This document shows, piece by piece, positions 30,500 to 50,555 of a stretch of 64,000 nucleotides of DNA (positions are counted from its first letter, which is position 1; each line of letters opens with the position of its first letter). The DNA lies in assembly GCF_030732985.1 (NCBI RefSeq), contig NZ_JASHJX010000014.1, positions 1 to 64,000 on the forward strand, written 5' to 3'. This DNA comes from Nioella sp. MMSF_3534. Its GTDB lineage: Bacteria > Pseudomonadota > Alphaproteobacteria > Rhodobacterales > Rhodobacteraceae. The notes beneath the pieces were generated by a model. It searched no databases. It was not told the origin of the DNA and saw only the letters and a program-made list of their open reading frames with translations. A program made the position numbers and the translations under genes.

Positions 30500-33400
30500 T
30501 CAGGCGCGACCGTAACCGCCCCCGCCGGGGGTCTGCATGAGGAAGATGTCACCGATCTGCATCTGGGCCTGATCATTGCCCGCCAGCAGGTCAACCCGAC
30601 CATCAGCCCGTTCCACCGCGTTGCGGCCACAATTCCCCGGTTCGCCCTCATGGGTTCCATGCGGCGGCACCTGCCGGTGCGAGGACAGGACCGTCACCGT
30701 CATCTCCTCCAGAAACCGCAGCCGCCGGGTGATGCCATTGCCCCCCTGCCAGCGGCCCGCGCCGCCTGATCCCTGACGGATCGAGAACTCCTCGACCCGG
30801 ACGGGGAAACGGTTTTCCAGCACCTCGGGGTCGGTCATGCGGGTGTTGGTCATGTGGCTGTGCACGGCGCTGGCCCCGTCAAATCCTTCCCCCGCGCCGG
30901 TCCCGCCACAGATGGTTTCGTAGTTCTGGAACCGGTCATTGCCATAGACGAAGTTGTTCATCGTCCCCTGACTGCCCGCGATCACCCCAAGCGCGCCATA
31001 AAGCGCGTCGGCGATGGACTGGCTGACCTCGGTATTGCCCGAGATCACGGCAGCAGGCGGGCGCGGGTTGATCATGCTGCCTTCCGGAACCCGGATTTCG
31101 ATGGGTTTCAGGCAGCCCTCGTTCATCGGGATGTCGGCCCCCACAAGCGTGCGGAAGACGTAGAGCACCACCGCCCGGCAAATCGACAGCGGTGCGTTGT
31201 AGTTCAGCCGGTCTTGCGGGGACGTGCCGGTGAAATCCACCACCGCGCTGCGGCCCGCGTGATCCACGGTGATCGCCACCTCGATCTTCGCGCCGCTATC
31301 CATCTTGTAGGTGAACCGGCTGTCCTTCAGCACGTCGAGCACGCGGCGCACGCTTTCCTCCGCGTTGTCCTGCACATGGCCCATATAGGCCTGCACGACG
31401 GGCAGTCCGAATTGCCGGGTGATCTTCTGCAACTCCGCCACGCCGGTGGCATTGGCCGCGATCTGCGCGGCGAGGTCGGCCATGTTTTCCTCGATATTGC
31501 GGCAGGGGTAGGGGCCGGAGGCCAGAAGGGCGCGCGTCTCGACCTCGCGCAACTGGCCCTGATCGACCAGCAGGACATTGTCGATCAGAACGCCCTCTTC
31601 CTCGATATGGGCGCTATCCGGCGGGGCAGAGCCGGGCGTCTTGCCGCCGATATCGGCGTGATGCCCGCGAGAGGCGGTGAGGAAGATGATCTTCTCTCCC
31701 GCCTCATCAAAGACAGGCGTGATGACGGTCACATCCGGCAGATGGGTGCCGCCGTTGAAGGGGTTGTTCATCATGAAGACGTCGCCGGGGCGGATTTGGC
31801 CCGCGTTCTCCCGCAACACGGTGCGGACGCTTTCGCTCATCGACCCCAGATGCACGGGGACATGCGGGGCGTTGGCCACGAGGTCACCAGCCGCATCGAA
31901 GATCGCGCAGGAAAAATCATAGCGTTCCTTGATGTTGACCGAATAGGCGGTGTTGGCCAGCGTCGCGCCCATCTGGTCGGCGATGGACATGAAGAGGTTG
32001 TTGAAGACCTCCAGCATCACCGGATCGACGGATGTCCCAATGGCCTCCTGCCGGTCCAGCGCCACCACCCGGCGCAGCACCATCGCGCCACCGGCCAGCC
32101 CCTCGGCCTGCCAGCCCGGTTCCACAACATTGGTGCCGGTCGGATCGACGATGATGGCGGGGCCAGTCTGGGTGTCGCCCGCGCGCAGAGTGGCGCGGTC
32201 GATCAGCGGAACGTCGCGCCAGCCACCTTCGCAATACATGCGGGCGCTGTCCTGTTGTGCGGGTGGGTCATTGGCGTCCGGCAGGGTCACCGCTTCACCG
32301 GTTTCGCCCACGGCCTCGGCGGTCAGTAGGTCGATGATCAGACCGTCATAATCCGGCACGAAGCCGAAGCGCTGCTGATGCGCCGCGTCGAACCCCTCGC
32401 GCATATCCTGCACCGGGCCGAACGGCACGGGCAGGGTCTGATGTGAACCGGGCGTGCGGATATGGGCGGTTTCGATCAGGGAGATGCGGTCTGCCGGGAT
32501 GCCCTGCCGCGCAACCTCGTCCCGCGCATCCGCGCCGATCCGGTCGAGGGCCTGCCGCGCGTCTTTGGCATCTGACAGGGGCCGCGCCAGCTGATGTTCC
32601 CGGATCGCCCGGATATCGGCCAGCCCCATGCCAAAGGCCGACAGGACACCCGCGAAGGGGTGAATGTAGATGCTCTCCATCCCCAGCACATCCGCCACCT
32701 GGCAGGCATGCTGCCCGCCCGCGCCGCCGAAGCAGTTCATCGTGTAGCGGGTCACGTCATAGCCACGCTGAACGCTGATCTTCTTGATCGCGTTGGCCAT
32801 GTTTTCGACAGCAATCCGCAGGAAACCCTCGGCCAGTTCTTCAGGGCTTTTCGGGGTCTCGCCGGTTTCCGAGGCGATCTGCGCGGCCATGGCTTGGAAC
32901 CCCTCGCGGGCGGCCTCCACATCCAGCGGTTCATCGCCACCGGGGCCAAAAACGGAAGGAAAGCGGTCGGGCTGGATCTTGCCAAGCACCACGTTGCAAT
33001 CGGTCACGGCCAGCGGCCCGCCTCGCCGGTAGGAGGCGGGGCCGGGATTGGCCCCGGCGCTTTCGGGGCCGACCTGCATGCGGCCCTGCGCGAAAGAGAG
33101 GATCGAGCCGCCCCCTGCGGCAACCGTATGAATGCTCATCATCGGGGCGCGCATTCGGACGCCAGCCACCTCGGTCTCGAAGGACCGCTCATAGTCACCC
33201 GCGTAGTGGCAGACATCGGTTGATGTCCCGCCCATGTCGAAGCCAATCAGCTTGTCGAACCCGGCCTCCTCCGCCGTGCGGACCATGCCGACGACGCCGC
33301 CCGCAGGGCCCGACAGGATCGCGTCCTTGCCCTGGAAGAGCCGCGCATCCGTCAACCCGCCGTTGGATTGCATGAACATCAGCGACCGGCAGCCGCCCTC

Positions 33401-34090
33401 AGCAGCCCCTAGCGCATCGCTGACCTGTTGCACGTAACGTCGCAGAATGGGCGACAGATAGGCGTCAACGACCGTTGTATCGCCGCGCGACACCAGCTTG
33501 ATCAGCGGGCTGACATCGTGGGAGAGCGAGACCTGTGTGAACCCCGCCGCGCGGGCCATGGCGCCGATCTGGCGTTCATGATCCGGGAAGCGATAGCCAT
33601 GCATCAGGGCCACGGCAACGGAGCGATAGCCCTCGGCATGGGCATCGCGCAGCGCGGCCTCGACCGAGGCGGTGTCGAGCGGGGTGATCACCTCGCCTGC
33701 TGCCGATATGCGTTCACCCACCTCGACGGCTTCTTCGTACAGCAGTTCCGGCAACTCGATCTTCAGATCAAACAGGCGCGGGCGGTTCTGGTAGCCGATG
33801 CGCAAGAGATCCTTCATCCCTTCGGTGATCAACAGCAGCGTCCGATCGCCCTTGCGTTCCAGAAGCGCGTTGGTGGCCACGGTGGTGCCCATCTTGACCG
33901 CATCAATCGCGCCTTCGGGGATAGCGGTTTCAGCCCCAAGCCCCATCAGCTCGCGAATGCCCTGCACGGCTGCATCCCGGTAGCGCTCGGGGTTCTCGGA
34001 CAGCAATTTATGCGTGACCAACCCGCCCTCTGGCGTGCGCGCGACGATATCGGTGAAGGTGCCGCCACGGTCGACCCAGAATTGCCACAT
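30500..34090 (-). CDS. 5-oxoprolinase (ATP-hydrolysing), fused HyuA-HyuB type
   Basis: 1196-residue single-chain enzyme of the eukaryotic-type 5-oxoprolinase family, hydrolysing 5-oxoproline to glutamate with ATP. The HyuA half (about 1-680) starts with [15 protein letters not shown] and has [18 protein letters not shown] and [12 protein letters not shown], the segment that distinguishes oxoprolinases from hydantoinases, plus the ATPase motif [11 protein letters not shown]. The HyuB half (about 690-1196) begins near [18 protein letters not shown] and ends with [16 protein letters not shown] and GGGGYGRA. Last gene of the operon LysR / cyclase / TRAP transporter; GAGGAG precedes its ATG. The link to a D-glutamate-cyclase-family gene strongly supports a 5-oxoproline substrate. 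Confidence 0.88.
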
Positions 34091-34155
34091 GAGACAGATC
34101 TCCTCTGTTTGCCAGGGTGTGCCCGGCAGCGTTTTTCGTCAGAAAGGGAAGGGGG

Positions 34156-35439
34156 TTATTGCAGGACGGCCGGCAGCCAGAGCGCGATACCGGGGATCGC
34201 AATCAGCGCCGCGACCATGGCCAGCATCGCCAGCACGTAAGGGATCGCGCCCAACATGACCTCGCTCATCTTCCCCGATTTTCGCGCGCCCTGCACCACA
34301 TAAAGGTTGAGGCCAACGGGCGGGGTGATCAGCGCCATTTCGATAAGCACGATCATCAGGATGCCGAACCAGATCGGGTCATAGCCTTGTGCCACTACCA
34401 GGGGCACGATGATCGGGATCGTCACCACCATCAGCGACAGGGTTTCGATGAAGAAGCCAAGCACGATGTAGATGCAGACCACGACTAGGATGGTCATCAG
34501 CGGCGACAGGCCGAGCCCGTCGAGGAAGCCCGAGAGTTCCGCCCCAAGACCTGCCGAGGCCAGCGTGAAGTTCAGGAAGGACGCGCCGATGACCACGAGC
34601 ATGATCATCGAGGTGATCTTGACGGTGCCCATGACCGCCTCTGCCAGCATGCCGATGGTCACGCGGCTGAAGATCGACGCGATCAGCAGTGCCCCGGCCA
34701 CGCCCACGGCGGCGGCCTCGGTCGGGGTGGCCCAGCCTTTGTAGATCGAGCCGATGATGATGGTGAAGAGCAGCACGATGGGAATGAGTTGCAGCAGCGC
34801 CCGCATCATCTCTGGCAAGGGGAAGACCCGGCGCTGGCCGCCCAGATCGGGCCGGATCGCGCAGATGATGGCGGTGATCGCCAGGAACCCGAGCGCCAGC
34901 AGGATACCGGGCATCAGCCCCGCAAGGAAAAGCTGCGGGATCGAGGTTTGCGTCAGGAAGCCATAGACAATGAGGTTGATCGACGGCGGGATCATGATGC
35001 CAAGCGTGCCGCCTGCGGCAATGGCGCCAGAGAAGAGCTTGGGGTCATATCCCAGTTTCTCTGCTTGCGGCATGGCGACGGTGGCCACGGTCGCGGCGGT
35101 GGCAACAGAGGAGCCTGACGTGGCCGAGAACATGGTGGCCGTCGCCACATTCGCATGGACCAGACCGCCCGGCATCCACGACACCCACCGGTCCAGCGCT
35201 GCATAGGTGCGGGCCGCAATCCCGCTGCGCACGAGGATTTCGCCAAGCAGCACGAAGAACGGAATGGCAATGAGTGTGGCGTTGTTCGAAGTGGACCAGA
35301 CAAGGTTGCCAAGCCCGCGCATCAGCGGGAAGGGGCTGAAGAAAACGTCAGTGCCAAAACCCAACAGGAACAGGACGATACCCACGGGGATCGACAGCGA
35401 CAGCATGGCCAGCAGGCCGATGGAGACATAGGTGATCAC
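34156..35439 (-). CDS. TRAP transporter large permease (DctM family)
   Basis: 427-residue inner-membrane protein with about 12 hydrophobic segments. DctM hallmarks are PFFVLLGEILVRSGIAART, ATSGSSVATAATVATVAMPQ and GIMIPPSINLIVYGF. Start is GTG at 35439, overlapping the DctQ stop (GTGA). A longer in-frame extension lies over the dctQ gene and is only a shadow. Works with the small permease and the periplasmic receptor encoded upstream to bring in an organic acid with sodium. Confidence 0.92.
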   Translation of the reverse strand: MITYVSIGLLAMLSLSIPVGIVLFLLGFGTDVFFSPFPLMRGLGNLVWSTSNNATLIAIPFFVLLGEILVRSGIAARTYAALDRWVSWMPGGLVHANVATATMFSATSGSSVATAATVATVAMPQAEKLGYDPKLFSGAIAAGGTLGIMIPPSINLIVYGFLTQTSIPQLFLAGLMPGILLALGFLAITAIICAIRPDLGGQRRVFPLPEMMRALLQLIPIVLLFTIIIGSIYKGWATPTEAAAVGVAGALLIASIFSRVTIGMLAEAVMGTVKITSMIMLVVIGASFLNFTLASAGLGAELSGFLDGLGLSPLMTILVVVCIYIVLGFFIETLSLMVVTIPIIVPLVVAQGYDPIWFGILMIVLIEMALITPPVGLNLYVVQGARKSGKMSEVMLGAIPYVLAMLAMVAALIAIPGIALWLPAVLQ

Positions 35440-35984
35440 AGCACTGCCTCCTCTTCGCCAAACGCCCCGATGGCGGCCTCGGATTGGCTGAATTCTCCTT
35501 TGGCGACCAGCAGCAGGGCGGCGAGGAAAGTCAGCCAGGACACGATGGCGAACCAGACCCATCCGGCGAACCACGGCCCCTGAACCAGCCAGAGCGGCGT
35601 TTCCAGCGGCGTGTTTGCGCGGGACATGTTGGCTATGGACCGGTCCAGAACAGGCCAGCAGCGGAAGGCGATCAGCGTCACGGTGCCCGCCATGGTCAGC
35701 ATGGCGAAGAGGTCGAACAGGGACCGACCAAGGGCCCCCACGCGCCCCCGGAGGATGTCGATGCGGACATGGGCCAGTTCCAGCAGGGCATAGCCCATCC
35801 CCCAGGACGTCACGATGGCCATGACATATCCGCTGATTTCGTCGGTGCCGCCGAAGGACGCCCCCAATTTGCGCAAGCCCACATCCAGCAGCACGAAAAC
35901 CGCGCAGAGGAACAGCACAAGGCCGATTGCCATGGCCACCCAACGGTTGAGGCGGCGCAGGAGGGAGAGAATGGACTGGGCCAT
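35436..35984 (-). CDS. TRAP transporter small permease (DctQ family)
   Basis: 182 residues with four predicted TM segments (about 12-34, 48-68, 90-110, 130-155) and the DctQ pattern GLRKLGASFGGTDEISGYVMA and LELAHVRIDIL. AAGGAGC precedes its ATG. Its stop overlaps the DctM start, the usual arrangement. Confidence 0.9.
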   Translation of the reverse strand: MAQSILSLLRRLNRWVAMAIGLVLFLCAVFVLLDVGLRKLGASFGGTDEISGYVMAIVTSWGMGYALLELAHVRIDILRGRVGALGRSLFDLFAMLTMAGTVTLIAFRCWPVLDRSIANMSRANTPLETPLWLVQGPWFAGWVWFAIVSWLTFLAALLLVAKGEFSQSEAAIGAFGEEEAVL

Positions 35985-36013
35985 TTTGGGGGCGCTCCTT
36001 CAGCGGTCCGGGG

Positions 36014-37048
36014 TCAGTTGACGGGAACCGTCACGCCAACGGTTGCGCCGACACTTTCGTTCCAGCGGGTTGCCCATTCACTGCCCGCGCGCTCGGCCCA
36101 ATCGGGCAGCACTTCGCTGACAAGGATGTCACGGGCACGGTCGAAATCGGCCTCCGAGACCTCGACAAGGATCATGTCGCGCGCCTCGCCCGCCGGGCAC
36201 TCGCCATTGCCGGTCAGGCAGGCGATGTCGTTGACCAGCGCATCCTGCGCGACGGCCCAAGCCGGGTCTTCGAAACCGGTGGCAATCTCGGCCTCGATCA
36301 GCGCCTGAGTGTCGGCATCCATCGCGTTCCAGCGGTCGAGGTTGATCGCGGTCACGACGGAATCCCAGCCACCAAGCGGAATGGGCAGCAGATGGGTGGA
36401 CACCTCCCACCAGCCGGCGGAATAGCCGGAACCCGCGCCCGTTACGGCACAATCCACGACACCGCGCTGCAACGCGCCGGGCACTTCAGAGAAGGAGACG
36501 TTCACGCCTTCCGCGCCAAGCGCCTCAAGAAATTTCGCGGTCATCCGGCCAGAGGCACGGATTTGAAGACCGGCGAGGTCATCGAGGCTGTTAATCTCGG
36601 CATTGCAGAACACGACCTGCGGCGGATAGGGGGCGATGGCCAGCACGTGGCTGTTGAAACGGGTGTTGTAGATATCCTCGACCATGGGGCGGGCCGCATC
36701 GACCATGGCGCGGGCCTCGTCAGCGGTCATGGCCAGCAGCGGCACGTCCAGACCTTCCAGCTCCGGCGCGTCGGCAACGGCGTAGTCGGCCACGGTCATC
36801 GCCACGTCATAGACCCCGTCCCCAAGCAGGCGATAGACGTCGCCCACGCCCAGGTTCATCTGGTTATGGGTGGTCAGGGCCACGTTGATCTCTCCCCCGG
36901 ATGCAGCGGGAAGGGTTTCGGTCCAAAAGGGCGCTTCGAACTGGTTGTGCAGCGGCAGGCTGGACCAGCTGCCCACGACCGACAGATCCTCGGCCAGGGC
37001 CGGGGACGCGGCCAGAACGGCGGCGGTGATGGCGATTGTCTTTTTCAT
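36014..37048 (-). CDS. TRAP transporter periplasmic receptor (DctP family)
   Basis: 344 residues with a Sec signal (MKKTIAITAAVLAASPALA). DctP-type core LQIRASGRMTAKFLEALGAEGV with the conserved carboxylate-binding Arg near 168, and FSEVPGALQRGVVDCAV. Two Cys near the C-terminus (IACLTGNGECPAG) probably form a disulphide. A DctP subfamily that binds pyroglutamate (5-oxoproline) is known from Bordetella; the neighbouring 5-oxoprolinase makes a similar ligand, or D-glutamate, plausible here (inference). Confidence 0.9.
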   Translation of the reverse strand: MKKTIAITAAVLAASPALAEDLSVVGSWSSLPLHNQFEAPFWTETLPAASGGEINVALTTHNQMNLGVGDVYRLLGDGVYDVAMTVADYAVADAPELEGLDVPLLAMTADEARAMVDAARPMVEDIYNTRFNSHVLAIAPYPPQVVFCNAEINSLDDLAGLQIRASGRMTAKFLEALGAEGVNVSFSEVPGALQRGVVDCAVTGAGSGYSAGWWEVSTHLLPIPLGGWDSVVTAINLDRWNAMDADTQALIEAEIATGFEDPAWAVAQDALVNDIACLTGNGECPAGEARDMILVEVSEADFDRARDILVSEVLPDWAERAGSEWATRWNESVGATVGVTVPVN

Positions 37049-37069
37049 CTCGTCTCTCCTTGTTGGATG

Positions 37070-37897
37070 TTAGCTTTTTGATTGTGTTTGTGAAATCACC
37101 GGGAATTCCGCGTCGTCGGGCACATCGGTGATCAGCATGTGGCCCGGTTTGTGGGTGATGCAGAGCGGCAGCTTCGCGCGGGTGACGGCCACTTGCGGGG
37201 TCACGCCACAGGCCCAGAAGGTGGGGATATGGCCCGGCGGCACCGGGACAGGATCGCCCCATTCCGGGCGGGTCACGTCCGCGATGCCGATCTTCGCCGG
37301 ATCGCCCCAATGGACCGGCGCGCCATGGCCGAGCGGGTAGCGACCGGACACTTCGATGGCCAGCGCCAACTGATCCTCCGGGATCGCGCGCATACTGACC
37401 ACCATGGCCCCGCCGAACGGCCCGGCGGGCACGGTTTGAACGGAGGAACGGAACATCGGTACGGTGCGGTCATTGTCGATATGCCACATGGCGATGCCCT
37501 CGGCCTGCAGCGCCTGTTCAAAGGTGAAGGAACAGCCGAGCGCGAAGCCAACCAGGTCATCGGTCCAGATATCCGAGATATCGGTGGCGGACCCGCTGAG
37601 TTGCCCGTTGCGATAGATGTTATAGGCGGGAACATCCGTCCGAAGATCCAGATCATGGCCGAGCGTTGTCAGCATCGGATTGCCGGTGTCGGAGACGCCC
37701 ACCAGAGGGCAGGGCTTGGGATTGCGCTGGCAGAAGCGCATGAAATCGAGCGCATAGGTCTTCGGCATGATCGCAAGGTTGGCCTGAAGATACCCACCCC
37801 CCAGACCAGCCGTATGGGAGGCATAGTCGCCCGCCCGGATCGCGGCCCGAACCTCCGGCAGGGGTTTGTGTTTCAGCAGGCCATGAGTCGTGTTCAA
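37070..37897 (-). CDS. D-glutamate cyclase-family protein (DUF1445, putative hydro-lyase)
   Basis: 275 residues, matching the YcsI/DUF1445 family, about 265 long: DYASHTAGLGGGYLQANLAI, VGVSDTGNP, TDDLVGFALGCSFTFEQAL and CGVTPQVAV...ITHKPGHMLITD. The mammalian member converts D-glutamate to 5-oxo-D-proline. In Bacillus subtilis the homologue lies in the operon of the unrelated PxpABC 5-oxoprolinase; here it sits with an ATP-type oxoprolinase. Start is TTG at 37897 with a GGAGGA site at good spacing; the next in-frame ATG would cut 43 conserved residues. Confidence 0.85.
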   Translation of the reverse strand: MNTTHGLLKHKPLPEVRAAIRAGDYASHTAGLGGGYLQANLAIMPKTYALDFMRFCQRNPKPCPLVGVSDTGNPMLTTLGHDLDLRTDVPAYNIYRNGQLSGSATDISDIWTDDLVGFALGCSFTFEQALQAEGIAMWHIDNDRTVPMFRSSVQTVPAGPFGGAMVVSMRAIPEDQLALAIEVSGRYPLGHGAPVHWGDPAKIGIADVTRPEWGDPVPVPPGHIPTFWACGVTPQVAVTRAKLPLCITHKPGHMLITDVPDDAEFPVISQTQSKS

Positions 37898-37987
37898 GGT
37901 CGGGTCCTCCGGTTGGGAGGAGTATCGAAAGCCAGTCCGATAAGATCAAATTGAATGATTTTTGAAATAGTGATTATAAAATTTTAT
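37898..37987 (-). promoter_or_regulatory. AT-rich control region before the cyclase-TRAP-oxoprolinase operon
   Basis: Ninety bases between the LysR stop and the cyclase start, strikingly AT-rich in its distal half in an otherwise GC-rich window. ATAAAATTTTAT (37976-37987) is a perfect 12-bp palindrome just after the LysR stop, and TCAAATTGA (37946-37954) is a second symmetric element. Both fit binding by the LysR-type regulator encoded immediately upstream and a promoter for the operon. Confidence 0.5.
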
Positions 37988-38880
37988 CACCCTGCAAAGT
38001 CCCGCGCCACGTTCTGCGCGATATGGGCGGCGGTTTCGACGATGTGGCTTTTGGGATCGCCAAGGAATGACGCGGAAAAGCGCAAGGGGCTTGGCACCCA
38101 ACCGGGGTCGAACTCCCTTATGCGACCCGCATTGACCATTGGCGCCCCAAGCGTGCGAGGCAGGGCGGCAACGCCCAGACCGGCCTCGACCAACCGGAAA
38201 CAGGCCGACAAGGACGAGGAGGGAAAGGTCGAAACCTGCGGTCCGACCCGCGCGGCCAGTTCCGCCTTCAACTCCCGGAAGGGGCGGGTGTTGCGGGCAT
38301 AGGTGATCACCGGTTTCAGCAGGAACCCGGCGGGACCTTCGGGGGGATCATCGGCCCCCGAAGCACAATACCACGCAAGGTCGAAAACGGGCAGGTCCAC
38401 GTTGTCGACGGAGTATTCCGAGATCGGGCCAAGCAGGATGGCAAGGTCGATCTCGCGGTTCAGCAGGTCGGCGCGCAGGTTCATCGAGATATCCACGTTG
38501 ATCTCGATATCGAGCGTCGGATAGCGATGGTGCAGGGCGGCCACGAATTCCGGCAGCCAGCATTGGGCGATGGTTTCAGACACGCCAAGGCGCAAGTGGC
38601 CTTCGACGCCCGCCGGGTCCATCACGTCGCGGCCCACCCGTTCGGCCAGTTGCTCCATCTGTTCGGCATATTGCACCAGCAGATCACCGCGCTTGGTCAG
38701 GCGAACGCCATTGGCGGTGCGCTCGAACAGTTCGGCCCCGAGCGAGGCTTCGAGGTTCTTGATCCGCGTCGTGACCGCCGGTTGGGTGATGTTCAGAACC
38801 TCGGCCGCCTTGCGGATGCCCCCCATGCGCACGACGGCGAGGAAGGTGTGCAGCTGGTCGAGGTTCAGTCGGGCTTTCAT
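37987..38880 (-). CDS. LysR-family regulator of the D-glutamate/5-oxoproline operon
   Basis: 297 residues. N-terminal winged HTH (about 5-65; LHTFLAVVRMGGIRKAAEVL, ITQPAVTTRIKNLEASLG) and a LysR substrate-binding domain (about 90-295). ATG at 38880 is preferred to 38895 because AGGCAAG precedes it. It precedes the cyclase, TRAP and oxoprolinase genes on the same strand. The intergenic palindromes suggest it controls them, but it is not divergent as most LysR genes are. Confidence 0.88.
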   Translation of the reverse strand: MKARLNLDQLHTFLAVVRMGGIRKAAEVLNITQPAVTTRIKNLEASLGAELFERTANGVRLTKRGDLLVQYAEQMEQLAERVGRDVMDPAGVEGHLRLGVSETIAQCWLPEFVAALHHRYPTLDIEINVDISMNLRADLLNREIDLAILLGPISEYSVDNVDLPVFDLAWYCASGADDPPEGPAGFLLKPVITYARNTRPFRELKAELAARVGPQVSTFPSSSLSACFRLVEAGLGVAALPRTLGAPMVNAGRIREFDPGWVPSPLRFSASFLGDPKSHIVETAAHIAQNVARDFAG

Positions 38881-38957: not shown

Positions 38958-39593
38958 TCAGTCGTTGTCGGTCAGCCCCGCACCGGCCCCGGCAAGGCGG
39001 CTTTCTTCGGTGGCAGGCGCATAGGTGCGATGCGCGAAGCTGTTGAGGGCCGCCACGGTGTCCGCAGAACAGGCGGACCGCAGCCCCTCGGCCACGGTGT
39101 CCCCTGCCGGATCGACGCCGAACCGGAGGGTTACGGGCGCAGAGACAGGCGAAGGGATGTCTTTCGTTTGGGTCAGGGTTCCCTCGGGGGACAGGGTGAC
39201 TGCCGTATCAGCGACCCCGATTCCGACCGTCCGCCCCTGAGCGGTCGCCATCCAGGACAGGAACGGGAGCAGCAGCAGCGGGCTTGCCAGATCGGGCAGG
39301 GTGATCGGGTCTGGGCCGGACCCGGCCATGCCGTCGGCCAGCATCGTGCCCGCAAGGATCGGGCAGGCGGTGCCGTCGGGGGCGGTCCAGTCGTCGGCAT
39401 CGGGGGTAAAGCTGGCCAGGTCCTGACCGTCCACGCGCTTCAGGTGGTCAACCAGTGCCTGAGCACCCGGCAGGCCCCGCGCCTCCAGCCAGCGCACGGC
39501 GCGGCCTGCCTCTTCTGCCAGGCCCCAGGAATATCCCGCGCCACGGGCGGCTTTGCGGGACAGGGCTTCGATCTCGTTCAGGGACCAGGTCAC
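38958..39593 (-). CDS. DUF3726 family protein
   Basis: 211 residues, no signal peptide. The N-terminus SLNEIEALSRKAARGAGYSWGLAEEAGRAVRWLE is the DUF3726 signature. A central hydrophobic segment (LPDLASPLLLLPFLSWMA, about 100-117) might be a buried core rather than a TM. Function unknown. Starts at GTG 39593 within the stop of the 564-residue unknown gene (GTGA), with GAGGAGG in front, so the two are made together. Last gene of the aldehyde dehydrogenase / dipeptidase / BCCT operon. Confidence 0.75.
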   Translation of the reverse strand: MTWSLNEIEALSRKAARGAGYSWGLAEEAGRAVRWLEARGLPGAQALVDHLKRVDGQDLASFTPDADDWTAPDGTACPILAGTMLADGMAGSGPDPITLPDLASPLLLLPFLSWMATAQGRTVGIGVADTAVTLSPEGTLTQTKDIPSPVSAPVTLRFGVDPAGDTVAEGLRSACSADTVAALNSFAHRTYAPATEESRLAGAGAGLTDND

Positions 39594-41284
39594 TCTGCGG
39601 CCTCCTCTGCCGGGGGGAAGGTCCAGTCATCGGCTTCGCCTTCCGCCAGATCACCGGGGAAGGGGGCGTGCTGGAACATGTTGATGCGCACCCAACGGTC
39701 CGAGCGCGGATCGAAATGCACGGCCCCGAAAAAGGCCAGCTTGGCGCGCAGCAGATCAATCGGCAGCAGGCCCGCGCCGATGGTGTTGTCGCGGATCTCG
39801 GCATAGGGGAAGCGGGCTGCAATCTGCGCTCGGCGGGCGATGTGGCGATGTTCAGGATGATCCATCAGGAAGCGGGCCACGGTCCCGGCATTGCTGGCCA
39901 GCAGATCGGCATGCATCCGGGCGGCATCGCGACCGGGGCAAAGCGGCAGTTCGTAGGGTTCCACCGGTTCGGCAAAGCGGTCGCCAAGGCGCGGTTCCAG
40001 CTTCTCCTCGGAGGTGTACCACACGTTTTCCTGCGCGGCCTGTGCCGTCCAGTCGATGGTCAGTGCGAAGCCGTATATATCTTCCACGTGAGCGCGGAAC
40101 TCATCGAGCGGCATGGTGCCGTCAATCCGCGTCGGCGCGGCTTCATCGGCGGCCATATCGTCGGCCAGCCCATCCACCAGATCGCCATGCGGTTCCAGCA
40201 GCAGCGAGACAAGCTGCTCCTGTCCTTCTAGGGTCAGATTGGCTTCCCCCCATTCCCACAGCGCGTTCCATGGCTGCGGGCCGGACAGGTCGGTCTCAGC
40301 CAGGTGGGTTGCAAGCGCATCCATGTCGCGGCGAAGATCGGCCAGCTTGCGTTGCTGGATCGGGTGTTCCGAATGCCAGTCCTGCGCATTGATCTGGGCG
40401 CGACGGGTGAAGCTGCGCACAGCCTCGGCCGTGCCGGGCAGCGCCGAGGGCAACGAGCGGACGCGTGCCAGCGCCTCTTCCCGCGCGGCGATCCAGTTGT
40501 TCAGCAGGACCGGATGATTGATCAGATAGGGCGCCATGCCAAGCCCGGTGGAATTGCCAATCCCGAAACGGCGACGGAGCGCGGGGGCCAGCGTAATGGC
40601 GGTTTCGGGGCTGCGCACTCGGGCCATGTGTTCCACAAGGTCCATCACGAAGGCGCGGGTCAGAAAGACGCTCAGCATCTCGACCTGGAAGGGTGCGTGG
40701 AATTCGGGTCGGTCGGCGGTCTTCTCTCGATCCGCCGCGCCCAGTTTGCCGGAACCATAGACGGCGGTCGTACGCATCAGATAGCCCACATCGGCCACAC
40801 GGGCCTCATCGGGCTGCTGGCCAGCGGCCAAAGCCTCGACCACATGATCCCAGAGCCGCACAGACCGGTTGGCGCGGCTGACCGAGAGGGAAGTGTCATC
40901 GACCCGGCCCGCCTCCTGCAGCGGAATATTGGCGCGCAGGCGTTCAATTTCTGCCCGGTCCGGGATGCCATCGTAGAGCGTAAAGGTCGCGTCCCATTCG
41001 GTGGCGATCACCCGGTCGGACCGTTTCTCGGGCGGCAGATCATTGGCGAAGGCGACCAGTGAATAGCTGTGATCGGGGCCATGGGCGGTATAGACGGCGT
41101 GACCAACGCCCTTGGCGTCCACCTCGAATTCACGACGCTCGAACCGCCAGTTCTCGGCCTTCAGGCGGCGCAGAAGGACCCGCATGAAGGACAGGCGACA
41201 CTGGTGGAAGGACCCCATGCGCGCCAGGGTCATCACCGTGTTCGGGTCGCGCGGGGCGATAGTGTCGGTGTCTGTCTGGGTCAT
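39590..41284 (-). CDS. Conserved protein of unknown function, 564 residues
   Basis: Not assigned to a known enzyme family. Soluble, acidic, no signal peptide. Segments that look conserved: MTLARMGSFHQCRLSFMRVLLRRL at the N-terminus (positions 15-40), GNSTGLGMAPYLINHPVLLNNWI (about 240-262), a Trp-rich middle (PWNALWEWGEANL) and INMFQHAPFPGD at the C-terminus. Start at 41284 is fixed by GGAGGA; an upstream extension to 41329 has none. Coupled by GTGA to the DUF3726 gene and in one operon with BCCT carrier, dipeptidase and aldehyde dehydrogenase. The context suggests a role in breaking down the imported compound (inference). Confidence 0.75.
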   Translation of the reverse strand: MTQTDTDTIAPRDPNTVMTLARMGSFHQCRLSFMRVLLRRLKAENWRFERREFEVDAKGVGHAVYTAHGPDHSYSLVAFANDLPPEKRSDRVIATEWDATFTLYDGIPDRAEIERLRANIPLQEAGRVDDTSLSVSRANRSVRLWDHVVEALAAGQQPDEARVADVGYLMRTTAVYGSGKLGAADREKTADRPEFHAPFQVEMLSVFLTRAFVMDLVEHMARVRSPETAITLAPALRRRFGIGNSTGLGMAPYLINHPVLLNNWIAAREEALARVRSLPSALPGTAEAVRSFTRRAQINAQDWHSEHPIQQRKLADLRRDMDALATHLAETDLSGPQPWNALWEWGEANLTLEGQEQLVSLLLEPHGDLVDGLADDMAADEAAPTRIDGTMPLDEFRAHVEDIYGFALTIDWTAQAAQENVWYTSEEKLEPRLGDRFAEPVEPYELPLCPGRDAARMHADLLASNAGTVARFLMDHPEHRHIARRAQIAARFPYAEIRDNTIGAGLLPIDLLRAKLAFFGAVHFDPRSDRWVRINMFQHAPFPGDLAEGEADDWTFPPAEEAAE

Positions 41285-41354
41285 ATGGGGTCCTCCTTCC
41301 CGTGAGTTGTTCTGTGGTGGCGGCCCCAACAGCTCGGGACCGCCGGTGGTTTCG

Positions 41355-42902
41355 TCAGCTGCGCCCCTTGGCCAGCGTGATCCTGAGCGCGTCCCAGAGC
41401 GAGGGCAGCAGCACCAGAGACACCGGCACGGCGGTGACGACGATGAAGCTTTGCAGTTTCCCGATGGTGCCCGAGCCGGTGTAGATCAGGATCAGCGCCA
41501 TCACCCCCATGGCCACGCCCCAGAAGACGCGGACGGGCAGGGCGGGCTTGTCCTCGTTCGACATGGCAACCGAGATCACATAGGTCATCGAGTCGCCCGT
41601 GGTGGCCACGAAGACCGTGGTCAGGATCAGGAACAGCACCGAGACGATGAAGCCCATGGGCAGTTGCTGGGTGATGGCCAGCAGCGCGGCGGGCAGGTTG
41701 AAGCCCTCGAATGCGGTCGAGACGGAACCGGGGGTTTCCAGCTCGAACCACAGCCCGGTGCCGCCCACGATGGTGAACCAGAAATTGGTCACGATGGGGG
41801 CGACGATGGCCAGCATGATCACGATCGAGCGGATCGACCGGCCCCGGCTGACACGGGCGATGAACATCGCCATCAGCGGCCCGTAGCCCAGGAACCAACC
41901 CCAGAAGAACACCGTCCACCAGCCAAGCCAGCCTGCCTCACCAAAGAGCCCCGCATCGCCGCGATGCAGCGCCATCGGGATGAAATCGGTGATGTAGGTG
42001 GTGAAGCCGCCAAAGAAGCTGGAAAAGATGAAACCGGTGGGGCCCGCGATCAGCATGAAGGCCAGCAGAACGCCCGCCAGGATCACGTTGAACCGGCTGA
42101 GGATCTGGATGCCCTTGGACAGGCCCGACATGGCCGACGCGGTGTAAAGCGCCACAAGGCCAAGGATCACAACCGCCTGGGTGGCAAAGCTGTCGGGAAT
42201 GCCGAACAGCGCGTTCAGCCCATAGCTGACCTGCAGGCCCAGAAAGCCGATGGGGCCAACGGTGCCCGCCACAACCGCGATGATGCAGGACGCATCGGCA
42301 ATCAGCCCGATGGGGCCATTGATCGCGCGGTCGCCAAACAGCGGATAGAGCAGCGTGCGCGGGGCCAGCGGCAGGCCCTTTTCATAGTGGTAATGCATCA
42401 GCATGACCGTGGTCAGCGCGCCAAGGATGGCCCAGGCCAGGAAACCCCAATGCATGAAGGATTGGGCCATGGCAGGGGCCACATCGGCCGCCGTTCCACC
42501 CTCGCCGCCGAAATGGGGCGGGGAATAGAGGAAATGCGCCATCGGCTCGGCTGCGGCCCAGAAGACACCGCCGCCTGCCAGAAGCGTGCACATGATCATC
42601 GCGCCCCACTGGAACACGGGGAATTCAGGCGCGGTCAGGCCGCCCATCAGGGCCTTGCCACCGGGAAGGACAACCAGCACGAGGCCGATCACGAACGTGG
42701 CGAGCAGAAGGATCTGCCAGTAGAGCCCGAAGAAGCGGGCCGACCAGGCAAAGCCGGTATCGACAAGGCTCGACAGCAGGTCGAGGTCGAAAAGCGCGAT
42801 CAGGCAGAAGATCGCGATAAAGCCGCCGGTGATGATGAAGAGCGGCTTGTTGATATGCCCCAACCCGCTGCTGGCGGTCTGTGGAGCGGTTGCGTCGGTC
42901 AT
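41355..42902 (-). CDS. BCCT-family betaine/carnitine/choline-type transporter
   Basis: 515-residue carrier with about 12 TM segments. BCCT motifs are MAHFLYSPPHFGGEGG and FMHWGFLAWAI with WAIL near 150-170, and FFWGWFLGYGPLMAMFIARVSRGRSIR near 310, which contains the family's aromatic box region. Starts at 42902 with GGGAGGA; a 14-residue extension is not needed. It imports a zwitterionic or quaternary amine. No long C-terminal osmosensing tail is present, so this is likely a catabolic rather than an osmotic carrier (inference). Confidence 0.92.
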   Translation of the reverse strand: MTDATAPQTASSGLGHINKPLFIITGGFIAIFCLIALFDLDLLSSLVDTGFAWSARFFGLYWQILLLATFVIGLVLVVLPGGKALMGGLTAPEFPVFQWGAMIMCTLLAGGGVFWAAAEPMAHFLYSPPHFGGEGGTAADVAPAMAQSFMHWGFLAWAILGALTTVMLMHYHYEKGLPLAPRTLLYPLFGDRAINGPIGLIADASCIIAVVAGTVGPIGFLGLQVSYGLNALFGIPDSFATQAVVILGLVALYTASAMSGLSKGIQILSRFNVILAGVLLAFMLIAGPTGFIFSSFFGGFTTYITDFIPMALHRGDAGLFGEAGWLGWWTVFFWGWFLGYGPLMAMFIARVSRGRSIRSIVIMLAIVAPIVTNFWFTIVGGTGLWFELETPGSVSTAFEGFNLPAALLAITQQLPMGFIVSVLFLILTTVFVATTGDSMTYVISVAMSNEDKPALPVRVFWGVAMGVMALILIYTGSGTIGKLQSFIVVTAVPVSLVLLPSLWDALRITLAKGRS

Positions 42903-42972
42903 TCTGTCCTCCCTCGCGAATAACCGTGGGTGCCTTGGCTGCACAGAATGCAGCGCGGGCGCAGTCCGGCCA

Positions 42973-43950
42973 TCAGGCCGGGGTGAAGTTTTCCTTGAAG
43001 AACCGGTGCCAGTTGCCGCCCATCAGGCCCGCGACCTCCTCGTCGCTGAAGCCCTTGGCGCTGAGGCCCGCTTCGATATTTCCGAAATCGCGGTTGTCGC
43101 CGAACCAATCGGGCATGGGCGGGAAACCGGGCGCGGCGGCGCTGCCCTCGCCATAGTCGATTTCCTTGGTCCAGCGGCCCACGCGCATCCATTCCACGAT
43201 ACTGTCGGGCTGATCCTGACAGAGGTCGCTGCCAATGCCGAAGTGTTCGACGCCGAACCGTTCGGCGGCGTCCGCAATCATGGAACAGAAGCTGTCCAGC
43301 GTGCAGGCGGACTTGTCCTTGAGGTGATGGGGATAGAGCGAGAAGCCCATCATGCCGCCGTTTTCGGTCACCGCGCGCACCACGTCGTCGCGCTTGTTGC
43401 GAAGCGCAGGCTGCCAGCTGTGCAGGTTGGCGTGGGTGATCGTGATGGGCCGGGTGCTGACCTCTGCCGCTTCGATGGTGGACCGGTCGGCGCTGTGGCT
43501 CATGTCGATGACCAGGCCCACGCGGTTCATCTCCTTGATGACCTGCTTGCCCATACGGGTCAGCCCCGGATCTTCCGCCTCATAGCAGCCCGTCGCCAGC
43601 AGCGACTGGTTGTTGTAGCTCAGCTGCATGAACCGCGCGCCGAGCTTGTGCCAGACTTCGACGAGGCCGATATCGTCCTCGATCGGGCTGGGGTTCTGGA
43701 AGCCGAAGAAGATCGCGGTGCGCCCGGTTTCGCGGGCTTTTTCCACATCGCTGGCCCACTGCCCGTGAAAGATCAGATCCGGGAACTGCTCGAACCAGCG
43801 GTTCCATTTCTCGACATTCAGAACCGTCTCGCGGAAATTCTCGTGATAGGCGATGGTGACATGAACCGCGTCCACGCCACCTTCGCGCATCTGCCGGAAG
43901 ATCTTTTCCGACCAGTTTGCATATTGCAGGCAGTCGATCCGATAGGTCAT
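42973..43950 (-). CDS. Membrane dipeptidase family (peptidase M19)
   Basis: 325-residue renal-dipeptidase-type zinc hydrolase. The recognisable order is VHVTIAYHENF at the N-terminus, GLVIDMSHSADRS with metal His, ITHANLHSWQPALRNKRDD with metal His, and HFGIGSDLCQDQP with catalytic Asp. The usual first HxD motif is replaced by DAVHVTIAYHE, so metal site 1 may differ. A member of this family lies in the glycine betaine catabolic cluster of Pseudomonas, so it may not act on dipeptides. Overlaps the aldehyde dehydrogenase by 4 bp. Confidence 0.88.
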   Translation of the reverse strand: MTYRIDCLQYANWSEKIFRQMREGGVDAVHVTIAYHENFRETVLNVEKWNRWFEQFPDLIFHGQWASDVEKARETGRTAIFFGFQNPSPIEDDIGLVEVWHKLGARFMQLSYNNQSLLATGCYEAEDPGLTRMGKQVIKEMNRVGLVIDMSHSADRSTIEAAEVSTRPITITHANLHSWQPALRNKRDDVVRAVTENGGMMGFSLYPHHLKDKSACTLDSFCSMIADAAERFGVEHFGIGSDLCQDQPDSIVEWMRVGRWTKEIDYGEGSAAAPGFPPMPDWFGDNRDFGNIEAGLSAKGFSDEEVAGLMGGNWHRFFKENFTPA

Positions 43951-45398
43951 TCCGGTGCCCCCGCAGAGATATAGGCGGTCTTCACCGTGGTGTAGAATTC
44001 CGCCGCCGTCCGGCCCTGTTCACGGGGGCCATAGCTGCTGTCGCCGCGCCCGCCGAAGGGCACGTGATAGTCGGTGCCGGCTGTGGGCAGGTTGACGGTG
44101 ACAACGCCGGTGCGGGCGTTGCGGCGGAAATGGGTGGCGCGCGCTATAGAGCGGGTGACGATGCCGGATGTCAGGCCGAAATTCGTGTCGTTGACGGTGG
44201 CCAGCGCCTCGTCATAGCTGCCCACCTTGATGACGGAGGTGAGCGGCGCGAACATCTCCTCTCGGTTTATCGCCATGTCGTTGCGGGTGTTCAGGAACAC
44301 GCCGGGGGACATGTAATAGCCCTCGGTTTCCATGTTCAGGCGCAGGCCACCACAGGCCAGTTCGGCGCCTTCGGATTTGCCGAGGTCCACATAGGCGAGG
44401 TTTTCATCGAGCTGCTGCTGGCTGACCACCGGCCCCATCTGGGTGCCTTCTGCCAGCGCGTGACCCACTTTCATCGCCTTCGCGCCAGCGACCAGCTTTT
44501 CGACAAAGGCATCATGGATGCCCTCATGCACCACAAGACGTGAGGACGCGGTGCATTTCTGACCGGTGCCGCCGAAGGCGCCCCCAAGGGCCAGCGTCAC
44601 GGCCAGATCGAGATCAGCGTCATCCATCACGGCGAGCGCGTTCTTCGATCCCATCTCGGCCTGGATCTTGGTGAAGTTCTGCACGGCAGCGGCGGCGATG
44701 CCGCGCCCCACGGGGACAGAGCCGGTGAAGGAAATGGCATTGACGCGCGGGCTTTCCACCAGACGCTGGCCCACGTCGCGGCCCGCGCCCATGACGAGAT
44801 TGAAGAGCCCCTTCGGGATGTCCTGGCGGCTGATGATCTCGGTCAGCGCCACGGCACTGGCGGGTGTCGCGTTGGCGGGCTTCCAGATCACCGCGTTGCC
44901 GTAGCACAGCGCGGGTGCGATCTTCCAGGATGCGGTTGCGGTCGGGAAGTTCCAGGGGGAAATCACCGCCACGACGCCCACGGGTTCGCGGCGCACGTCG
45001 ATTTCGACGCCCGCGCGGACGCTGTCGGCATTCTCACCCAGTTGCCGCAGGCATTCTGCGGCGTAGTAGGTGAAGAACTGACCGGCGCGATAGACCTCGC
45101 CCTTGCCCTCGGCCAGCGGCTTGCCTTCTTCGCGGGAGAGAAGCGTGCCCAGTTCCTCGGCCCGCGCCATCAGTTCGTTGCCGATATTCATCAGGACGGC
45201 CTGCTTGCGTTCCATGCCGTAAGCGGCCCATTCCGCCTGTGCGCGGGTGGCGGCGTCCAGCGCGTCGTCAAGCTGCGTAGCACTCGCCTGTGTGAACATC
45301 CCAACGAGGTCGCTCAGATCCGACGGATTGCGGTTCTCGATCTCGGAAATCCCCGACACCCATTCCCCGGCGATGTAATTCAGCTTTGTCTCGGTCAT
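43947..45398 (-). CDS. Aldehyde dehydrogenase, 2-oxoglutarate-semialdehyde type
   Basis: 483-residue NAD(P)-dependent aldehyde dehydrogenase. Motifs: ISPWNFPTA near 150, ITFTGS-like SFTGSVPVGRG near 230, base Glu in AEMGSKNA (about 252) and nucleophile Cys in GGTGQKCTASSR (about 286). Closest in character to YcbD / alpha-ketoglutaric-semialdehyde dehydrogenases, but the substrate is not fixed by sequence. GAGGA precedes the ATG at 45398. First gene of the five-gene minus-strand operon controlled by the upstream LysR box. Confidence 0.9.
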   Translation of the reverse strand: MTETKLNYIAGEWVSGISEIENRNPSDLSDLVGMFTQASATQLDDALDAATRAQAEWAAYGMERKQAVLMNIGNELMARAEELGTLLSREEGKPLAEGKGEVYRAGQFFTYYAAECLRQLGENADSVRAGVEIDVRREPVGVVAVISPWNFPTATASWKIAPALCYGNAVIWKPANATPASAVALTEIISRQDIPKGLFNLVMGAGRDVGQRLVESPRVNAISFTGSVPVGRGIAAAAVQNFTKIQAEMGSKNALAVMDDADLDLAVTLALGGAFGGTGQKCTASSRLVVHEGIHDAFVEKLVAGAKAMKVGHALAEGTQMGPVVSQQQLDENLAYVDLGKSEGAELACGGLRLNMETEGYYMSPGVFLNTRNDMAINREEMFAPLTSVIKVGSYDEALATVNDTNFGLTSGIVTRSIARATHFRRNARTGVVTVNLPTAGTDYHVPFGGRGDSSYGPREQGRTAAEFYTTVKTAYISAGAPE

Positions 45399-45485
45399 CT
45401 GGCGGTCCTCTTTCTGCGCGCGTGTTAACAGCGGCAGAGGGCCACAGAGAGGAGATTCAGGCAAACGCAAAGAAATTGAATTTGC

Positions 45486-45500
45486 TTCAGCAATGCTGAA
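45486..45500. promoter_or_regulatory. Regulator box in front of the aldehyde dehydrogenase operon
   Basis: TTCAGCA-A-TGCTGAA is a perfect 15-bp palindrome in the 103-bp gap between the LysR stop and the aldehyde dehydrogenase start. It has the form TTCA-N7-TGAA, containing the T-N11-A core of LysR sites. It shares 11 of 15 positions with the box at 46398. Confidence 0.65.
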
Positions 45501-45501
45501 C

Positions 45502-46383
45502 TTAGTGGTCCACGCCCGTGATCCGCGCCAATCGGATCGATTCCACCAGCGCCCGCGCGGCGGGGGTCAGCATCTGCCGGGGTTGGGTGATCAACCAGAC
45601 CTCTCGCCGTGCCCTGACATTGGCCAGCGGCAGAAAGGCCAGATCGGTGAATTCGGGCAGCACCACCAGCCGGGGCAGCACGGTGATACCCACACCAGCC
45701 TTGACCAGCCCCAAAAGCGAGGCGGTATTGCGCACCATCAGCCGGGCACTATCGAGGATGGGCGCAAACCCTTCGTCCCGGATCTGGCTGCACAAGCCAT
45801 TGGCGATGAAGTCGATCCCCTCCAGATCCGACCATGTCAGCTGGTCCCAGTCTTTCGCCAGAGGATGGTCGCGGCGGCAAATCACGCCGAACCGGTCGGA
45901 AAACAGCGGGCGGCAGTCGAACCCCTGAAGCGCGCCGATGCTGGCCAGACCGATATCGGCCCGCTCTGCCTGCAAGTCCTGGTGCACGGCGGCGGAATCC
46001 ATGTCGGCCATGTCGATGCGCACATTCGGGTGGTCCTGAAGGAAGCGATGCAGGATCGGCGGCAGAACCGATTGCGCCAGCGACGGCGTGACCGACAGCC
46101 GGACAAAGCCAAGCTCTGCCCGAGACAACCCCTCGATGGTGGACACCGTGCGGTCGAAGTGGTCCAGCTCTCGCCGCGCCTCGTTGTGGATCAGTTGGCC
46201 AAGCGGCGTCAGGCGCGATTTGCGGGCCGTTTCGAACAGGGGGGCGCCGATATGGTCCTCGAATTGCTTGAGCATCATTGACACGGCAGAGGGCGTGCGC
46301 CCCAGAACCGCCGCCGCATCGGCAAGCGAGCCTTGGTCCACGACAGCCCGGAAACAGCGCAGCATCTCGATCTTGATGGACAT
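45502..46383 (-). CDS. LysR-family regulator of the BCCT/dipeptidase operon and ridA
   Basis: 293 residues with N-terminal HTH (MLRCFRAVVDQGSLADAAAVLGRTPSAVSMMLKQFE, about 7-42) and a LysR effector domain. It sits between the aldehyde dehydrogenase operon (same strand) and a divergent RidA gene, with the same TTCA-N7-TGAA box on both sides, so it probably controls both and itself. Confidence 0.9.
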   Translation of the reverse strand: MSIKIEMLRCFRAVVDQGSLADAAAVLGRTPSAVSMMLKQFEDHIGAPLFETARKSRLTPLGQLIHNEARRELDHFDRTVSTIEGLSRAELGFVRLSVTPSLAQSVLPPILHRFLQDHPNVRIDMADMDSAAVHQDLQAERADIGLASIGALQGFDCRPLFSDRFGVICRRDHPLAKDWDQLTWSDLEGIDFIANGLCSQIRDEGFAPILDSARLMVRNTASLLGLVKAGVGITVLPRLVVLPEFTDLAFLPLANVRARREVWLITQPRQMLTPAARALVESIRLARITGVDH

Positions 46384-50486: not shown

Positions 50487-50555
50487 AGTCGTCCGGCATC
50501 CGGGGCGTGCAAGTCGGTGCGTCCCGGCGGATTTCAAGACAAAGGGGCCAATCCC

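Follow-up and report, generated by a model that had tools for sequence, protein, structure and literature searches.

The window, a 64,000-nucleotide stretch of contig NZ_JASHJX010000014.1, carries on its minus strand (38880-30500) six intact genes encoding, in order, a LysR-type regulator, a DUF1445 protein (PF07286), the three components DctP, DctQ and DctM of a tripartite ATP-independent periplasmic (TRAP) transporter and a fused HyuA-HyuB enzyme. We consider it likely that these six genes form an operon for the import and utilisation of 5-oxoproline (pyroglutamate) under the control of the LysR regulator. DctPQM would take up 5-oxoproline, the fused OPLAH-type enzyme would open the lactam at the expense of ATP to yield glutamate as a carbon and nitrogen source, and the LysR protein would regulate the operon. 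The DUF1445 protein would belong to this pathway too and handle the D-isomers of that metabolite pool: it would either be a D-glutamate cyclase feeding 5-oxo-D-proline or convert the D-lactam to the form that the oxoprolinase accepts.

The gene set, order and coordinates given in a preliminary description of this DNA were confirmed, all six genes being intact with domains matched by Pfam. The first gene, co-directional with the others, encodes the LysR-type regulator of 297 residues (37987-38880; PF00126 and PF03466), and a lysR gene is also found upstream of DUF1445 in many related loci. The DUF1445 gene (37070-37897) starts with a TTG codon at 37897, preceded by GGAGG, and its product of 275 residues matched the Pfam family PF07286 'D-Glu_cyclase' (203.5 bits) and the NCBIfam model NF003969 'putative hydro-lyase' (391.2 bits, cut-off 324). 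The transporter genes follow: the solute-binding protein DctP, of 344 residues (36014-37048; PF03480), the small membrane subunit DctQ, of 182 residues (35436-35984; PF04290), and the large membrane subunit DctM, of 427 residues (34156-35439), whose GTG start at 35439 overlaps the dctQ stop. DctM matched PF06808 (278.6 bits) and TIGR00786 (302.7 bits), scores computed on a frame four codons longer than the 427-residue call. The last gene (30500-34090) encodes the fused HyuA-HyuB protein. NCBIfam offers no named model for the fused protein or for DctQ; the other parts are assigned as in the preliminary description.

The source organism appears to be a Rhodobacteraceae-type alphaproteobacterium, and the closest named relative found was Nioella sediminis, with a DUF1445 protein 96% identical. 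A perfect inverted repeat GTGAT-N11-ATCAC, LysR-box-like in its T-N11-A core, is located at 37990-37970, overlapping the stop codon of lysR and lying directly ahead of DUF1445. Nioella (L096) preserves the arms, and the repeat was not seen in the other regions listed for comparison.

DUF1445 genes recur with TRAP genes and either of two oxoprolinases

We examined an even sample of the class, comprising 240 genomes, of which 47 have DUF1445 and 193 do not. Relatives of OPLAH were collected at E <= 1e-165, a cut-off which admits a few full-length matches at 41-44% identity and some gene pieces; they occurred in 108 genomes, and a PF02626 gene in 61. OPLAH relatives were found in 36/47 DUF1445 genomes and 72/193 others (p 1.3e-6; this and the following p values carry no correction for phylogeny or genome size). 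For the PxpC-type count, eight genomes with very long PF02626 frames, judged to be urea-carboxylase-like, were removed, leaving 24/47 DUF1445 genomes against 29/193 (p 6.8e-7); with the eight kept, the counts were 26/47 and 35/193. One or the other type was present in 45 of the 47 genomes with DUF1445 and in 89 of the 193 without (p 3.9e-11). DUF1445 is tied to 5-oxoprolinase in these genomes.

The same association was observed at the level of gene neighbourhoods. We compared 131 loci. Of these, 51 surround the other DUF1445 matches of the class sample and extend over 20 kb at most, some being truncated where a contig ends; the remaining 80 come from named records and, as the top matches to the query, are biased to close relatives. 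One locus belongs to both sets (L063 and L111), which leaves 130 distinct loci. A locus was labelled PxpABC when it held at least two of PxpA, PxpB and PxpC. A DctM-like permease gene (>200 bits) was present near DUF1445 in 25/51 class loci and 40/80 named loci. A fused OPLAH gene lay within about 10 kb of DUF1445 in 6/51 and 22/80, and PxpABC in 4/51 and 21/80, where our own rough estimate of the chance expectation is about 0.5% for one oxoprolinase gene per genome. The neighbourhood OPLAH count leaves out L096, where the gene is cut by the contig end, and L115, which holds a 262-residue piece. The partners were nearly always on the same strand as DUF1445 (OPLAH 27/28, PxpC 25/25, TRAP 60/65). 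Chance clustering was rejected, as DUF1445, TRAP and oxoprolinase genes recur together and mostly on one strand.

Fused OPLAH and PxpABC were never found together (0/131 loci, 130 distinct). Instead, they replace each other. After LysR-DUF1445-DctPQM in the same order, L106 has the fused enzyme and L099 has PxpBCA; Pxp genes are carried by L097 and L105 as well, and a fused gene by L108. The DctP proteins of L106, with the fused enzyme, and of L097 and L099, with PxpABC, are 81-82% identical to the window DctP. A quick tree built from 132 DUF1445 proteins requires no fewer than 11 switches between OPLAH and PxpABC over its 55 labelled tips (L096 being counted here as OPLAH), against a mean of 18.5 and a minimum of 10 in 200 shuffles of the labels. 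The oxoprolinase type is thus partly inherited and often switched.

That the DUF1445 link recurs with the unrelated PxpABC enzyme had been put forward in the preliminary description from the case of Bacillus. We observed it in Planococcus (L151, PxpB-PxpC-PxpA-DUF1445) and in loci of Proteobacteria, and the recurrence is stronger than had been claimed, since close relatives of the window organism have one oxoprolinase or the other in what is otherwise the same operon. Among 14 control genomes, PF07286 was matched in Bacillus subtilis alone, with a single match; we take its DUF1445 gene to be ycsI.

The fused enzyme and the transporter

OPLAH-type, or eukaryotic-type, 5-oxoprolinases are defined by a single polypeptide that joins the HyuA and HyuB domains. 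The window protein has this arrangement, with PF05378, PF01968 and PF02538 together in 1196 residues. Among the 47 DUF1445 genomes, 36 carry a full-length OPLAH relative at 58-100% identity and the other relatives are at 40% or less among the matches listed. Across the full set of 240 genomes no such gap is seen and the identities extend lower, with a few full-length matches at 41-44%. The fused genes located near DUF1445 encode proteins 55-97% identical to the window protein. Within the 47 DUF1445 genomes, in a comparison among bacterial sequences, the OPLAH group is set apart, and the fused protein is most likely an OPLAH-type ATP-dependent 5-oxoprolinase, as judged from its sequence. Pfam found no PxpA, PxpB or PxpC gene in the window operon from LysR through the fused gene.

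Other related genes were found in the same genome. One PF02626 gene is located on another contig (G000:C37:22177-22944, 194.5 bits) and is a candidate PxpC only. At 50517-55785 the window encodes a further, separate pair of HyuA and HyuB, with an ABC-transporter ATPase gene after it; the HyuA part of this pair is 33% identical to the fused enzyme, and the pair is a different hydantoinase-type system. On the other side of the operon, beside lysR, the region 38958-46383 encodes a DUF3726 protein, a 579-residue protein without Pfam match, a BCCT transporter, an M19 dipeptidase, an aldehyde dehydrogenase and another LysR. It looks like a separate catabolic cluster.

For the transporter, plain sequence searches of the PDB with phmmer placed 2pfz first (E 2.2e-15). 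This first place was rejected as evidence since 4n4u and 5i5p score almost the same by profile. In the structural comparison, the DctP model ranked first to third with 2pfy (Z 35.0), 2pfz (34.0) and 6wgm (33.3), all titled as pyroglutamate receptors, with 300-303 residues aligned at a root-mean-square deviation of 2.2-2.6 Å and 18-19% identity. Close relatives of 2pfz or 2pfy (329 and 317 bits) are encoded in L127 and L162, in operons of the LysR-DUF1445-TRAP-oxoprolinase kind with OPLAH or PxpABC, and Achromobacter (L156) encodes a protein very close to 2pfz (611 bits), some 1.5 kb away from an OPLAH gene and on the opposite strand. The Bordetella receptors DctP6 and DctP7 were solved with 5-oxoproline, DctP7 having a dissociation constant of 0.3 µM, and a eukaryotic-type oxoprolinase gene lies nearby, according to the available text of PMC13274462. 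DctPQM fits 5-oxoproline uptake, although not decisively, and the substrate is assigned here from the model and from these relatives. The combination of TRAP uptake and an ATP-type oxoprolinase in one 5-oxoproline operon, already proposed in the preliminary description, is supported by the parts, by their recurrence and by the oxoprolinase swap, the DctP match being narrow.

Several observations weigh against a 5-oxoproline operon. In the profile search with DctP, scores were near level for 2pfz (104.4 bits), 4n4u (103.0) and 5i5p (100.2), with 2pfy level too, and 5i5p is titled as specific for aromatic acids. The fourth row of the structural ranking is at Z 33.2, and rows less than 1 apart count as tied. 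At the genome level, two of the 47 DUF1445 genomes (G034 and G067) have neither oxoprolinase type at the thresholds used, OPLAH is common without DUF1445 too (the 72/193 above), and the co-occurrence p values ignore kinship as well as genome size. Near DUF1445, OPLAH, PxpABC, DUF2848 and amidase genes were all absent in 35/51 class and 28/80 named loci. Finally, DUF2848 and/or amidase genes were present in 20/131 loci, 15 of them without an adjacent oxoprolinase.

These 20 loci, 13/80 named and 7/51 of the class, include 17 with TRAP genes. Both DUF2848 and amidase (PF01425) genes are near DUF1445 in L044, L051, L052, L117, L133, L139, L142, L145, L152, L156, L158 and L169. The cluster names DUF2848, amidase and, below, DUF4392 rest on one or two annotated members each, DUF4392 also on a family scan. 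DUF2848 and amidase possibly constitute a third processing module. Simple hydrolysis by the two is disfavoured, because the equilibrium of the ATP-free reaction is given as about 0.035, glutamate to 5-oxoproline, in the available text of PMC13274462.

The role of the DUF1445 protein and alternative readings

The cyclase name of the family comes from full-length mouse DGLUCY, composed of DUF1445 and DUF4392, which converts D-glutamate to 5-oxo-D-proline (PMC5339696, available text). By analogy, the window protein may cyclise D-glutamate to 5-oxo-D-proline, the oxoprolinase route then leading to L-glutamate through a racemase encoded elsewhere or a D-tolerant oxoprolinase; we regard this as possible but short of probable. 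The D-glutamate to 5-oxoproline to glutamate pathway advanced in the preliminary description was not borne out, since opening of the D-lactam returns D-glutamate and no racemase was found linked among the most frequent partner families scanned. Its authors had remarked on the stereochemistry as a puzzle. The puzzle is real, but rather than a side issue it is the weak point of their pathway: as ring opening leaves the stereocentre untouched, the route is circular and costs ATP unless a racemase takes part.

We searched for such a racemase among the neighbours of DUF1445. Unlabelled same-strand partner genes, 186 in total, came from 124 of the 131 loci, the other seven having no cleanly called DUF1445. 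Seven recurrent clusters (including DUF2848, amidase, ABC-transporter ATPase, major facilitator superfamily and porin) and genes outside 130-480 residues were dropped, leaving 99 genes, 97 of which were aligned and scanned, with matches to 103 families. No racemase family was observed among the 25 most frequent of the 103 families in these 97 genes, a rare racemase being possible in one or a few loci. The window genome does contain three Asp/Glu-racemase-family genes over the cut-off, which could serve a route through a distant racemase; all are on other contigs.

The most frequent partner family was GLUCM-like_C (DUF4392), with 6/97 genes. A gene of the DUF4392 cluster lies near DUF1445 in seven loci, six with PxpABC (L159, L163, L168, L170, L171 and L173) and one, L140, with neither oxoprolinase. 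The two halves of mammalian DGLUCY are thus linked in some bacteria, in favour of the D-glutamate route. Against it, DUF4392 (PF14336) is absent from the window genome and from 43/47 DUF1445 genomes, a match being found in 4/47, and the authors of the DGLUCY study tied racemase homology to DUF4392 and not to DUF1445, as stated in the available text of PMC5339696. Most sampled alphaproteobacteria with DUF1445 carry only the first half of DGLUCY. In the six PxpABC loci, several of them gammaproteobacterial and L163 from a Clostridia genome, the DUF4392 gene is separate from DUF1445. It is followed in L171 by a class IV aminotransferase gene, whose cluster spans four loci. Two neighbouring DUF4392 genes were also noted in an alphaproteobacterial genome, beside a fused HyuAB gene that belongs with the paralogs at 34% identity (G053:C2:20469-26259).

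Cofactor-independent racemases employ two conserved cysteines. DUF1445 could itself be such an enzyme, a 5-oxoproline racemase or epimerase in which Cys122 and Cys230, placed on opposite faces of the lactam, would serve as acid and base and so turn the D- into the L-form used by OPLAH or PxpABC. We judge this unlikely. Both cysteines are invariant in the 54 aligned DUF1445 proteins (54/54), and in the model each is located between a strand and a helix, Cys122 after strand 115-121 and before helix 124-132, Cys230 after strand 223-229 and before helix 233-241. A racemase would also account for the presence of DUF1445 beside two unrelated oxoprolinases and for the fact that no linked racemase was seen. 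Nevertheless, Cys56 and Cys63 are nearly as conserved: in the class set (n=52), Cys230 was found in 52/52, Cys122 in 49/52, Cys56 in 49/52 and Cys63 in 50/52. Three divergent paralogs lack Cys122 and keep Cys230, GSNTSCD replacing GCSFTFE (L082, L083 and L084); these perhaps have a second activity.

Nor does the fold favour a racemase. The DUF1445 model (mean predicted local distance difference test score 94.6) matches its PDB relatives 2pif and 3db9 (Z 33.6 and 31.1). Beyond the family itself, the sole clear match is the NrpR-like nitrogen repressor protein MJ0159 (3nek; Z 10.1 over 170 residues), the following row being at 4.3. No Asp/Glu racemase, DapF or proline racemase appears among the best-ranked matches listed by the two fold searches. 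By sequence, a PDB profile search with the 54 proteins gave 2pif and 3db9, everything else being at E >= 0.5, and did not bring up 3nek. No significant internal duplication was detected either: hhalign of residues 25-158 against 152-267 gave a probability of 0.3% (P 0.21), even though the cysteines are in register. To our knowledge, cyclisation, measured on the mammalian protein, is the sole activity reported for the DUF1445 family, which also speaks against a racemase.

A broader form of this proposal, which we put forward as a rather improbable speculation, is that stand-alone bacterial DUF1445 is not primarily a cyclase but a 5-oxoproline racemase with an NrpR-like fold and Cys122 and Cys230 as its catalytic pair, its 5-oxo-D-proline being imported or derived from D-glutamate. 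If true, DUF1445 would close the missing stereochemical step in bacterial D-glutamate salvage with either oxoprolinase.

It is more improbable still that the operon serves another lactam or amide for which DctP and the HyuAB fusion would be specific: the superfamily does include N-methylhydantoinase and caprolactamase, the DUF2848/amidase variant recurs with TRAP genes in 17/20 loci and DctP has low identity to pyroglutamate receptors (18-19% over the structural alignment), but the fused protein falls in the group at 58% identity or more, apart from the others at 40% or less among the matches listed for the DUF1445 genomes, the fused proteins encoded near DUF1445 share 55-97% identity with it, and the partner alternates with PxpABC, whose known substrate is 5-oxoproline. 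Import and utilisation of 5-oxoproline is therefore the reading that we retain.

Comparison with known systems

The present results indicate that DUF1445 accompanies the 5-oxoproline pathway, regardless of which of the two unrelated oxoprolinases is used, both in Proteobacteria and in some loci of Firmicutes, and that TRAP transporters are a recurrent uptake route beside DUF1445 and oxoprolinase. They also imply that the annotation 'D-glutamate cyclase' is not a proven function of stand-alone bacterial DUF1445. The family becomes testable with a few purified bacterial enzymes. The operon is of an ordinary kind and its role in 5-oxoproline uptake and use is well supported; the comparative result on DUF1445 is the useful one. 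We found no paper joining DUF1445, OPLAH and TRAP in a search that left most subscription papers outside, so that the link may have been published.

Within the HyuA/HyuB superfamily, caprolactamase (6yra) differs from the window protein by its separate subunits and by an NCBIfam score of 341 bits against a 1000-bit cut-off, and N-methylhydantoinase (7hk5), at 454 bits, scores far below the orthologs of the window protein. Mammalian DGLUCY shares the DUF1445 domain but adds DUF4392, whereas the window protein consists of DUF1445 alone.

The Bordetella pertussis TRAP receptors DctP6 and DctP7 (Rucktooa 2007, as cited in the available texts of PMC13274462 and PMC12344293) resemble the window system in that a TRAP receptor, for 5-oxoproline in Bordetella and probably so in the window, is encoded near an OPLAH-type gene. 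In Achromobacter L156, the OPLAH protein encoded about 1.5 kb from a receptor of this type shows 60% identity to the window protein in an alignment of 807 residues. The window DctP is however distant from DctP6 and DctP7 by sequence, as the phmmer match to 2pfz shows. In the Bacillus subtilis operon, pxpABC is found with ycsG and ycsI (PMC10448178 and PMC13274462, available texts), so that here too a DUF1445 gene accompanies a 5-oxoprolinase; the oxoprolinase is PxpABC and not a fused OPLAH, and the transporter is of the NRAMP type and not TRAP, its role being disputed (PMC10448178, available text). For Bordetella, uptake by TRAP next to a eukaryotic-type oxoprolinase had already been proposed, and the pairing of a DUF1445 gene with PxpABC is known from Bacillus.

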